Source: Deltaproteobacteria bacterium (lineage in GTDB: Bacteria; Myxococcota_A; UBA796; GCA-2862545). From it: a DNA stretch of 64,000 nt. The notes under the pieces are model-generated. The model was not told where the DNA came from. It searched no databases and saw only the letters and a program-made list of their open reading frames with translations. Position numbers and translations under genes: made by a program. The stretch spans positions 1 through 64,000 of the forward strand of contig REDI01000043.1 in assembly GCA_007693595.1 (NCBI GenBank), given 5' to 3'. Shown here piece after piece: positions 53,502-56,003 of the stretch; position 1 is the stretch's first letter; every line of letters begins with the position of its first letter.

Positions 53502-53530
53502 TTGGCCTGCGGGCTCAGATGTTGTATACG
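53502..53530 (+). promoter_or_regulatory. Candidate sigma-70 promoter for the FHA gene
   Basis: TTGGCC at 53502-53507 and TATACG at 53525-53530, spaced by 17 bases. Each matches the consensus at four of six positions. It lies about 60 bases before the FHA gene start, in an otherwise GC-rich 239-base gap after dnaB. Confidence 0.4.
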
Positions 53531-53591
53531 TTCACCCCGGTCGCATGTGCGCACCGCAATGTTCCCCGCACACCAGGAGACGGCGGACCCC

Positions 53592-54779
53592 ATGGAAAAG
53601 CCTGAGCTTCTGTCCAAATTCCAGGCCAAGGTAGACGAGTTCTCGCGCTACCATGCCTTCGTCGAGAAGGCGCAGGCCCAGGCTGATCGTTTCGCCCCTG
53701 AAGTGGTCGAGAAGGTCATCTCCGAGAACAAAGAGAAGTCTCTGAAGGTGGTCGAGGATCTGATCCCGCTCACCGTCGACATCGTCGAGGCGATCGACGG
53801 TCTTCGCGCCGCTCGAGACAAGGTCGAGTCCGACAGCGCCGAGTCCTCCATGCGCATGCAAGAGCTCGAGCTCCGCCACGCCATCGGAGAGCTCGATGAA
53901 GACGGCTTCGAGAAAGAAGCCGCGGAGCTCCGGGGCGAAGTGGACTCGGCCAAGTCTCGAATCGCTGAGATCGATGAGGAGATCGAGTCCTTCACGACGG
54001 CGGTCGATGGCTGGAATGAGTTGGGAATGAAGGCGGGTGTGCTCGCTGCTCCTGTCAGCACCGAACCCGAACCCGAACCTGAACCCGAACCCGAACCTGA
54101 ACCCGAGCTTGAGCCGGTCCCTGTTCCGGCCGCCGAAGAGGACCCCCTCGTCGAGGGGTCCGATGACATCCTCTTCGGCGATCATGACGGAGCGGATATC
54201 GTCGAGATCGCGGTCGACGACGAAGGTGGCGATGACATCGCCATCGGGCCGGCCGACGACATGGGCGTCCACGCGGAACGGGTCACGATCCAAGACGACC
54301 TATCGGTCGTCTTCGACGACGCGGGCCCTTCGGATGACGCGCCCCAGGCGGACTCCGCCGACGAAGAGATCCTCCTCGGTGAAGATGTCCTCCCCGACGA
54401 CGACGACGCCGGCCTCGACATCCTCGGCGACGACGAGCCTCTTGAGCTCGATGGTGCGGAGCCCGTAAACGACATCAAGCCCCGGCGAGCGGTACTGCTC
54501 CAGTCCGAGAGCAGCCCCGATGAGCAGGTACACCCCGTGACCAAAGACGTTGTCAGCATCGGCCGAGGGCGCGATAACGACATCCAGGTCCGCAACGACT
54601 CCAAGGTTTCGCGCTATCACTGCAAGATCTATCGCCGAGGTCCCAACTACTACATCGAAGACAACAAGTCCGCGAACGGCAGTCTGGTCAACGGCGAGCT
54701 CATCACCGAGCGGCGTCTGTTCGGGGGCGAAGAGATCATCGTCGGCGAGACTTTCTTCCGCTTCCGGATCATGGACTGA
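53592..54779 (+). CDS. FHA-domain protein with N-terminal coiled coil
   Basis: The start is the ATG at 53592 (395 residues); an ATG 11 codons upstream is possible. Residues 1-140 are helical and coiled-coil forming (KVEDLIPLTVDIVEA-like heptads, ending EEIESFTTAVDG). A Glu-Pro repeat (about 157-175) and a long acidic region follow. The C-terminal FHA domain (about 310-390) has SIGRGRDNDIQVRNDSKVSR and YHCKIYRRG, then SANGSLVNG, so the Arg, Ser and Asn that bind phosphothreonine are intact. It should recognise Thr-phosphorylated partners in the cytoplasm, perhaps substrates of a PknB-like kinase (inference). A strong terminator follows. Confidence 0.85.
   Translation: MEKPELLSKFQAKVDEFSRYHAFVEKAQAQADRFAPEVVEKVISENKEKSLKVVEDLIPLTVDIVEAIDGLRAARDKVESDSAESSMRMQELELRHAIGELDEDGFEKEAAELRGEVDSAKSRIAEIDEEIESFTTAVDGWNELGMKAGVLAAPVSTEPEPEPEPEPEPEPELEPVPVPAAEEDPLVEGSDDILFGDHDGADIVEIAVDDEGGDDIAIGPADDMGVHAERVTIQDDLSVVFDDAGPSDDAPQADSADEEILLGEDVLPDDDDAGLDILGDDEPLELDGAEPVNDIKPRRAVLLQSESSPDEQVHPVTKDVVSIGRGRDNDIQVRNDSKVSRYHCKIYRRGPNYYIEDNKSANGSLVNGELITERRLFGGEEIIVGETFFRFRIMD
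54060..54107 (+). repeat. Glu-Pro coding repeat
   Basis: Tandem copies of GAACCCGAACC(C/T) encode alternating Glu-Pro residues in the FHA protein linker. Such rigid EP linkers space domains apart, and the six-base unit keeps the frame. Confidence 0.8.
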
Positions 54780-54814: not shown

Positions 54815-54848
54815 GCCCAGGGGTCTGAGACCTCTGGGCCCTGTTTTT
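54815..54848 (+). terminator. Rho-independent terminator after the FHA gene
   Basis: An 11-base stem with one G-T pair, GCCCAGGGGTC against GACCTCTGGGC, around a three-base loop, followed by CCTGTTTTT. The next start codon lies only about ten bases beyond the T-tract. Confidence 0.88.
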
Positions 54849-54858
54849 GGGGGACTGG

Positions 54859-55389
54859 TTGACAACGGGTCCGATCGTCTTGGCGGGCCCCGATCCCGTC
54901 TGTCCGATCTCGTTCGCGGGGCGCTGGTGCCAGCTGCCGAGTGCGGAGCCATTCGACGGCACGGTGGTGCGGGCGTGCGACGCGCTGGCTGCGGGCCCTC
55001 CTCCCGGCCCGGTGCTCTTATTGGCCGAAGGGGAGCCGCCACCCAAGCTCCCACCCCGCGTGACGGTGGCCCCGTCGGGCCCTTGGTCGCAGGTGGTCGC
55101 CGACGCCTGGATCGAGCGTCTCATCGTCGCAAAGAAGGTCGAGAAACACCTACGGCATGACATCTACAGCCCCCTTGGCGTGCTGGTGGGGCATATAGAC
55201 CTGCTCCAGGAGCCTTCGCGGGGACCGCTGAGCGCCCCGCATCGATCTTCGATCCTGGCCATGCAGCGCGCGCTCGATCGGCTCGAAGATCAGCTAGACG
55301 CCCTGGTGCGCCTCCTCGAGTCCCACGAGGGCTTGTGGGCGCGCCGTCCACCCCATAGGGTGAAGACGTCTCGCGGGGAAGATGCATGA
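54859..55389 (+). CDS. Histidine-kinase DHp-like phosphotransfer protein without ATPase domain
   Basis: Taking TTG 54859 with a GGGGGA Shine-Dalgarno gives 176 residues; TTG 54847 lies in the terminator T-tract and is unlikely. Residues 1-80 are a short alpha/beta segment with a Pro-rich loop. From about residue 85, two helices resemble a histidine-kinase dimerization and phosphotransfer domain: an H-box with H100 in LRHDIYSPLGVLVGHIDLL, and a second helix (SSILAMQRALDRLEDQLDAL). The catalytic ATP-binding domain is absent. The receiver gene that follows overlaps its stop (ATGA), so this protein is a good candidate to pass phosphate to, or remove it from, that receiver, like Spo0B-type relays (inference). 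Confidence 0.55.
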   Translation: MTTGPIVLAGPDPVCPISFAGRWCQLPSAEPFDGTVVRACDALAAGPPPGPVLLLAEGEPPPKLPPRVTVAPSGPWSQVVADAWIERLIVAKKVEKHLRHDIYSPLGVLVGHIDLLQEPSRGPLSAPHRSSILAMQRALDRLEDQLDALVRLLESHEGLWARRPPHRVKTSRGEDA

Positions 55390-56003
55390 GCAAGGGGCAT
55401 GGGAACGGAGCGAACGGCGAGGGGACGCCCAAGTTCTACACGACCCACCAAGTGTCCAAGTTGCTCGGCGTCTCGATCCCAACCGTGTGCAACTGGACCG
55501 ACAGCGGTGAGCTCAAGGCTCATCGGACCCCCGGAGGTCATCGGCGGATCGGCCATGAATCGCTGGTTCACTTCGTCGAGCAGCGTGGCCTCGACATCTC
55601 GCTGGGTCCCGAGGACGCGCGAGCCCGGATCTTGATCGTTGACGATGAGCGAGACTTCAGCGAGATGCTCCGGGACTATCTTCAGATCAAGGGCTACGAC
55701 GTCGAGATCGCGGAGTCTGGGTTTCAGGCGGGCATGACCGTCGCGCGATTCCGGCCCGATCTGATCCTGATGGATATCATGATGCCCGAGATGAATGGTT
55801 TCGAGGTGCATCGGGTGCTCCGAAGCGAACCTCAAACAAGAGATATACCAGTCATTGCGTGCACGGCTTACCGAGACGCGGATGTGGACGCTCGTGTCGT
55901 CAAGGAACGATTCGAGGGTTTTATCGAAAAGCCCATCAAGATGAGCCAGCTCTTGCTGCTCATTCAGCGCACCCTGGGATCGAGCTCAGGGGTGGCCCGC
56001 TGA
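55386..56003 (+). CDS. Excisionase-type HTH plus receiver response regulator
   Basis: A 205-residue protein. Residues 17-66 are an excisionase/MerR-like winged HTH (YTTHQVSKLLGVSIPTVCNW, then AHRTPGGHRRI). Residues 81-200 are a receiver with D86/D87 in LIVDDERD, phospho-acceptor D130 in LILMDIMMPEMNG, T160 and K182 in IEKPIK, all intact. HTH before receiver is the reverse of the usual order, though this layout is known in Myxococcota-type genomes. It is translationally coupled to the DHp-like gene, which may modulate its phosphorylation. DNA targets are unknown. Confidence 0.88.
   Translation: MSKGHGNGANGEGTPKFYTTHQVSKLLGVSIPTVCNWTDSGELKAHRTPGGHRRIGHESLVHFVEQRGLDISLGPEDARARILIVDDERDFSEMLRDYLQIKGYDVEIAESGFQAGMTVARFRPDLILMDIMMPEMNGFEVHRVLRSEPQTRDIPVIACTAYRDADVDARVVKERFEGFIEKPIKMSQLLLLIQRTLGSSSGVAR

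Follow-up and report, generated by a model that had tools for sequence, protein, structure and literature searches.

The window, by which we mean the whole stretch of 64,000 nucleotides that was analysed, belongs to a genome of 4.9 Mb in 97 contigs. The region considered here holds the following features:

53502..54779, + strand: FHA-domain gene, a 425 aa ORF with a probable ATG start at 53592 and a Pfam FHA match of 61 bits
54815..54839, + strand: predicted terminator-like hairpin with a T run behind it, in the gap that separates the FHA and DHp genes
54859..55389, + strand: ORF1, a putative histidine-kinase remnant without the ATPase (CA) domain; about 80 N-terminal residues without assignment, then a DHp hairpin with H100
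55117..55320, + strand: DHp core (H-box and second helix), matched by the DHp-core model; predicted helices at residues 75-116 and 126-155
55386..56003, + strand: ORF2, a response regulator with an HTH_17 (excisionase/MerR-like) domain and a receiver (HTH-REC), in ATGA overlap with the DHp gene

ORF1 encodes 176 aa from a TTG at 54859, or 180 aa from an in-frame TTG at 54847, and ORF2 encodes 205 aa from an ATG at 55386 that shares its ATGA with the end of ORF1. Both H100 and LRHDIYSPLGVLVG of the ORF1 protein were confirmed in the translation. The hairpin at 54815-54839, just 5' of the candidate TTG start, comprises 11 pairs with a TTTTT tail (−21.5 kcal/mol and z −2.0 by folding prediction) and could serve to separate or to attenuate the two-gene operon.

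The original prediction described ORF1 as a DHp fragment without an ATP-binding domain and ORF2 as a complete receiver with an excisionase-like HTH, overlapping ORF1 by ATGA. Domain searches agree with both descriptions. In Pfam, ORF1 matches HisKA alone (E 1.6e-4; residues 101-154 when the 180-aa form is numbered), and the protein gives no HATPase match; ORF2 exceeds the cut-off for two families, Response_reg at 90.9 bits and HTH_17 at 42.2 bits. HPt (PF01627) was matched neither by the window protein (Pfam, E ≤ 1) nor by 16 members of its family (E ≤ 0.01). The HisKA score of ORF1, 22.1 bits, lies below the gathering score of 26.9, as it might if the H-box were a chance resemblance in an unrelated small helical protein. 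This reading is scarcely credible, and is refuted by the homologues: all 16 aligned CA-less homologues match HisKA (Pfam, E ≤ 0.01; best E 4.7e-14), none of them matches HATPase at the same threshold, and in related loci the position is taken by full kinases sharing this DHp. The DHp core of the window protein scores 86.6 bits against the A3 DHp model, which includes the window sequence itself.

Structural comparison points the same way. AlphaFold2, run on the single sequence, gives helices at residues 75-116 and 126-155 with the histidine in the first (pLDDT about 70-82), while residues 1-81 are poorly modelled (pLDDT below 50). Residues 85-150 would thus form, with modest confidence, a DHp hairpin and not a different fold, as the original prediction had it. 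The best solved matches in Foldseek are DHp-containing kinases, DivL (DHp-CA, E 0.05) and VC2136, at E values of 0.05-0.14 that are weak and stand among other helical hairpins. The DHp-core profile, searched against the PDB, finds KdpD (5.5e-9), DivL (1.3e-5) and EnvZ constructs (4e-4 and weaker). By alignment, the bare DHp proteins of family f1 stop soon after the DHp, the window protein among them about 25 residues beyond it; those of genus g20 continue for about 70 residues beyond it, with no Pfam match there.

The same gene pair was sought in other genomes. The search covered the 63 genomes of the order to which the window belongs, its own genome counted, and a regulator profile found an ortholog of the regulator at E ≤ 1e-35 in 50 of the 63. 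Receivers from unrelated proteins came up when contigs were searched with the regulator, and this search was set aside. The order of genes is fixed: FHA gene, variable partner, HTH-REC regulator. Among the 50 genomes the partner is a bare DHp in 16, a full kinase in 13, a degenerate kinase in one (G045) and absent in 17; the regulators of the other three (G005, G023 and G044) are diverged, without an FHA neighbour in the stretch read, and were left out of the 47 classified loci. The full-kinase partners are 655-781 aa long (n=13), and all five of the 13 that were scanned with Pfam contain HisKA, HATPase_c and GGDEF, with Response_reg above cut-off in three of the five. In G045 the partner is a DHp protein whose ATPase part is not recognised by Pfam. 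Outside the order but within the class, the regulator of G069 is preceded by a DHp protein of 241 aa whose C-terminus is not recognised. The partner is absent in families f3, f4 and f6 and in the only congener of the window's genome, G001; in G054 and G060 the FHA gene lies about 500 bases from the regulator, and no DHp was seen in this gap, and G047, counted as partnerless, lies on a contig that starts only 235 bases before the regulator. The FHA gene, with its strongly conserved C-terminus, is found upstream in most loci where the stretch reaches far enough, and is the most constant neighbour of the HTH-REC regulator.

The partner DHps group as a single subfamily that stands apart from the remaining kinases of these genomes. 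A DHp-core model of 72 columns was built from the 16 bare DHps adjoining the regulator and searched against 60 of the 63 order genomes (G012, G061 and G062 were left out). The top 27 matches, at 61-97 bits, every one lie directly upstream of an HTH-REC ortholog; they comprise 15 bare DHps, all of which are in the model, and 12 long proteins outside it, namely 11 full kinases and the G045 partner. The next match falls to 53.7 bits (a 639-aa frame in G018), and the second-best match in the window's own genome reaches 36.5 bits at most.

Orthologous loci and the regulator tree together support the view that the ATPase domain was lost more than once. By taxonomy code, bare DHps occur in f1, in genus g20 of f2, in genus g15 of f2 (G055) and in f5 (G028); the G055 protein stands among nine full-kinase g15 members and the G028 protein beside two full-kinase f5 members. 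The tree was built from 52 rows and 208 columns, excluding four of the eight phylum outgroups and four diverged HTH-REC proteins with no FHA neighbour in the stretch read (G005, G023, G044 and the second G048 regulator). On this tree, in which several branches are weak and some rows, including G055, are long, the bare-DHp label changes five times and the full-kinase label four times. With the 29 bare and full rows alone, four changes are needed, and a single clade of all bare-DHp rows is rejected (AU p 0.0076). Such counts carry no direction, and loss is favoured over gain of the CA domain because the f2 and f5 kinases share their compound architecture and because the G055 bare DHp, and weakly that of G007, appear to retain the kinase N-terminus. 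The N-terminal receiver of the G055 protein scores 77.6 bits against the N-terminus of the full kinases (200 shuffles, ≤ 7.2), and that of G007 a weak 17.1 bits (shuffles, 6.2). For the window protein the same comparison gives −1.7 bits, no link, and the N-termini of G000, G011, G020, G028 and G005 did not score clearly above shuffles as receiver relics (G028, 1.9 against a maximum of 1.8). The C-termini of the g20 proteins were considered as relics of a pseudo-receiver; they look alike by eye, and profile scores of 0.1-4.0 bits were no better than shuffles.

The bare DHps have been kept under a pattern of constraint that bears on whether they function at all. Seventeen were compared, the 16 beside the regulator and that of G005. 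The histidine, whose conservation the original prediction had made decisive, and the aspartate that follows it (D+1) are invariant in all 17, and H100, D101, L106 and G111 in the 16 that were aligned. A decaying remnant without present function and on its way to loss, a reading that we consider quite improbable, would account for the fast divergence (between G008 and G017, the bare DHps share 34 of 62 residues and the regulators 187 of 203), for the absence of the partner in G001 and in f3, f4 and f6, and for frames in three genomes that start only with CTG. The four invariant residues nevertheless persist among homologues that are only 21-36% identical to the window protein, the reading frame is uninterrupted in 17 of 17, and a bare DHp is kept in all four g20 loci having the regulator and in most of f1. 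Since dN/dS is saturated for all pairs of bare DHps, differences were counted by codon position: an excess at the third position is seen in five of five pairs (for example 11/6/32 and 15/8/35, and less clearly 21/20/38). The residue before the histidine is R in 13 of the 17 bare DHps (nine of 11 in f1, four of four in g20) and S in all 13 full kinases, an apparent parallel change in two separate losses of the CA domain.

The receiver residues, namely the acidic pair (D, D), the phospho-acceptor D, T/S and K, are intact in the window regulator and in all 31 partner-bearing loci. In eight of the 17 partnerless loci (f4 and f6) one or more of these residues are gone, probably through few events, and nine (f1, f3 and genus g30 of f2) have kept the receiver, with E for the first D in G054. 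These counts fit, without showing, a receiver that depends on the partner. In G037 (L143), G039 (L150), G046 (L204) and other f4 and f6 loci the HTH-REC gene lies directly behind the FHA gene, and the residues for phosphorylation are lost while the HTH is kept; these regulators have apparently been converted to a phosphorylation-independent form.

Two residues of the H-box bear on what the bare DHp does to phosphate. A study of CrdS and other HisKA proteins assigns T or N at the fourth position after the histidine (+4) to phosphatase activity, for which it was the only residue needed in the proteins tested, and E or D at +1 exclusively to kinase activity (PMC3510030). Position +4 is T or N in nine of the 17 bare DHps, S in five and G in three, and S in all 13 full kinases; the window protein has S and so lacks the phosphatase motif H-E/D-x-x-T/N. 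What remains after loss of the CA domain is the DHp, in which the phosphatase activity of HisKA proteins resides, and the protein could be a phosphatase or phosphate sink, with another kinase or a small-molecule donor loading the regulator and the DHp only removing phosphate. The DHp of EnvZ alone reportedly acted as a phosphatase in work by Zhu in 2000. In HEK cells, in contrast, no such activity of it was apparent (PMC8971529). That protein, EnvZ domain A, is like ours a bare HisKA DHp with an HD-type H-box, but it is a laboratory construct and has T247 at +4 where the window protein has S. The nine proteins with T or N fit this reading and the eight with S or G run against it; a purely phosphatase role is disfavoured because H and the kinase-assigned D+1 are invariant while +4 varies, and we regard it as unlikely.

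The kinases of the window's genome were surveyed for a source of phosphate. It contains 24 HisKA domains, 22 of which have an HATPase_c match close behind in the same frame; the remaining two are the window's DHp and a 607-aa HAMP-like protein on contig C27, whose ATPase part, judged by eye, is probably degenerate. Ten of the 32 HATPase_c matches are without a listed HisKA partner, and six of these were read by eye: two are of RsbT-like/anti-sigma type, two are of gyrase B type, one is a kinase with its own H-box and one is a long TPR protein. A dedicated stand-alone CA protein as the obvious partner, like that of a split histidine kinase of the CheA3/CheA4 type, was set aside on these six of ten, a partial check in which no stand-alone HisKA-type CA was seen. 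This also weighs on a distinctly improbable alternative, that of a split kinase in which H100 receives its phosphate in trans, through DHp heterodimers, from the ATPase domain of a different, full-length histidine kinase; no other DHp of the genome is close (36.5 bits at best). The invariance of D+1, which serves autophosphorylation (PMC3510030), in proteins without a CA domain in cis would suit such an arrangement, and EnvZ split into HisKA and HATPase polypeptides is described as still active (PMC3591291). A split kinase would be a special case of the donor question raised by the reading that we prefer.

The data presented above have led us to propose, at a probability of about 0.5, that the DHp gene is an eroded cognate hybrid kinase that now serves as a histidine-phosphotransfer subunit for the adjacent regulator and receives its phosphate from another protein. 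The ancestral partner would have been a hybrid kinase composed of receiver, DHp, ATPase/CA, pseudo-receiver and GGDEF domains. On more than one occasion its ATPase and output domains would have disappeared, leaving a bare DHp hairpin. Judging from the HisKA family, two hairpins would associate as a dimer, forming a four-helix bundle on which the receiver of the HTH regulator docks. The invariant histidine would be phosphorylated by another protein, either by the receiver of a hybrid kinase, as in a Spo0B-like relay, or by an ATPase domain in trans, and the phosphate would move to or from the aspartate of the regulator and so set its DNA binding. Dimerisation, receiver docking and phosphotransfer are all predicted from sequence. 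That the stump and its histidine have outlasted what were apparently repeated losses of the ATPase domain suggests that the bare DHp still passes or controls phosphate. The minimal relay of the original prediction, with phosphate coming from elsewhere, remains plausible and is the favoured reading, and the DHp/HTH-receiver anatomy on which it was based is sound; an unrelated relay part is not what the locus suggests, because a complete hybrid kinase fills this slot in orthologous loci. Its comparison with Spo0B/Spo0F holds for Spo0B, a DHp dimer serving a DNA-binding regulator, and Spo0A is a better counterpart of ORF2 than Spo0F.

A stronger form of this proposal is tentative. A kinase reduced in several independent events to nothing but a dimeric DHp may have become the obligatory phosphotransfer hub of its regulator, a hub without an ATPase fold, with control passing from a dedicated sensor to the other kinases of the cell. 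Several observations weigh against the main proposal. Decay would also explain the fast evolution of the DHp; 17 of the 47 classified order loci, that of G001 among them, lack the partner, and the receiver is intact in nine of those 17; G005 has a DHp without HTH-REC, and G008, G012 and G017 have no ATG, GTG or TTG start; and the window protein has a HisKA score below gathering and an N-terminus without link to that of the kinases.

The window DHp probably works, by analogy, like the phosphotransferases Spo0B, ChpT and PhyT, yet without their ATPase relic. Spo0B keeps an ATPase-like second domain. ChpT of Caulobacter keeps an atypical Bergerat-fold C-terminal domain (PMC3433190). Like both of these, the window protein has a kinase-resembling DHp hairpin with a phospho-acceptor histidine and is not expected to be an autokinase; both serve DNA-binding response regulators (Spo0A and CtrA), and the adjacent regulator here also bears an HTH. 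It differs in having no recognisable second domain and in that the bare state occurs beside complete kinases in the same genus. PhyT/PhyP of Sphingomonas is likewise a degenerate kinase whose gene shares a locus with that of its response regulator, and it acts as both phosphotransferase and inhibitor (PMC5898713); unlike the window protein, this is a membrane protein with an HRxxN motif of HWE/HisKA_2 type that keeps a degenerate ATPase domain. With the whole Spo0B/ChpT/PhyT type the window protein shares a conserved histidine and kinase ancestry, while the C-terminal degenerate Bergerat domain is missing.

HisKA proteins without a CA domain are already known from database counts. In the count of Amin et al. 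2013, 1556 of 42417 HisKA proteins lack HATPase, 711 of them with HE/DxxN/T, and are called "potential split kinases" (PMC3591291); archaeal kinase-like proteins without HATPase are mentioned as possible phospho-acceptors (PMC5847659). The Amin count is a database count without locus, partner or history, whereas here the regulator, the likely parent kinase and the apparent repeated loss are visible. Several percent of HisKA entries lack the CA domain (PMC3591291), and the natural role of a lone DHp is largely untested. The present locus brings together a likely parent kinase, its truncated products, the apparent repeated losses and the regulator, and full-kinase and bare-DHp versions within one genus offer a natural control. 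No description of the locus was found in open-licence PMC papers, in searches of which several were too broad or empty.

Some loci depart from the common arrangement. In G005 (L198) a bare DHp stands behind the FHA gene with no HTH-REC after it; it is perhaps orphaned, or serves a relocated regulator. The bare-DHp ORFs of G012 (L034:1146), G017 (L037:1176) and G008 (L152:1707) have no ATG, GTG or TTG before the H-box; the first codon of each frame is a CTG in overlap with the stop of the FHA gene (CTGA). Either initiation at this CTG by termination-reinitiation or a frameshift fusing the FHA and DHp genes may account for this. In further families of the phylum (f31), a long kinase-like ORF lies directly upstream of HTH-REC in the four of four loci read by eye (six were fetched), and no FHA gene was found upstream in the stretch read; the f31 regulators have the same domain order as the window regulator and are about 120 aa longer at the C-terminus. 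The FHA protein itself (53502-54779 and orthologs) has an acidic, variable middle and an almost unchanging C-terminal FHA domain.
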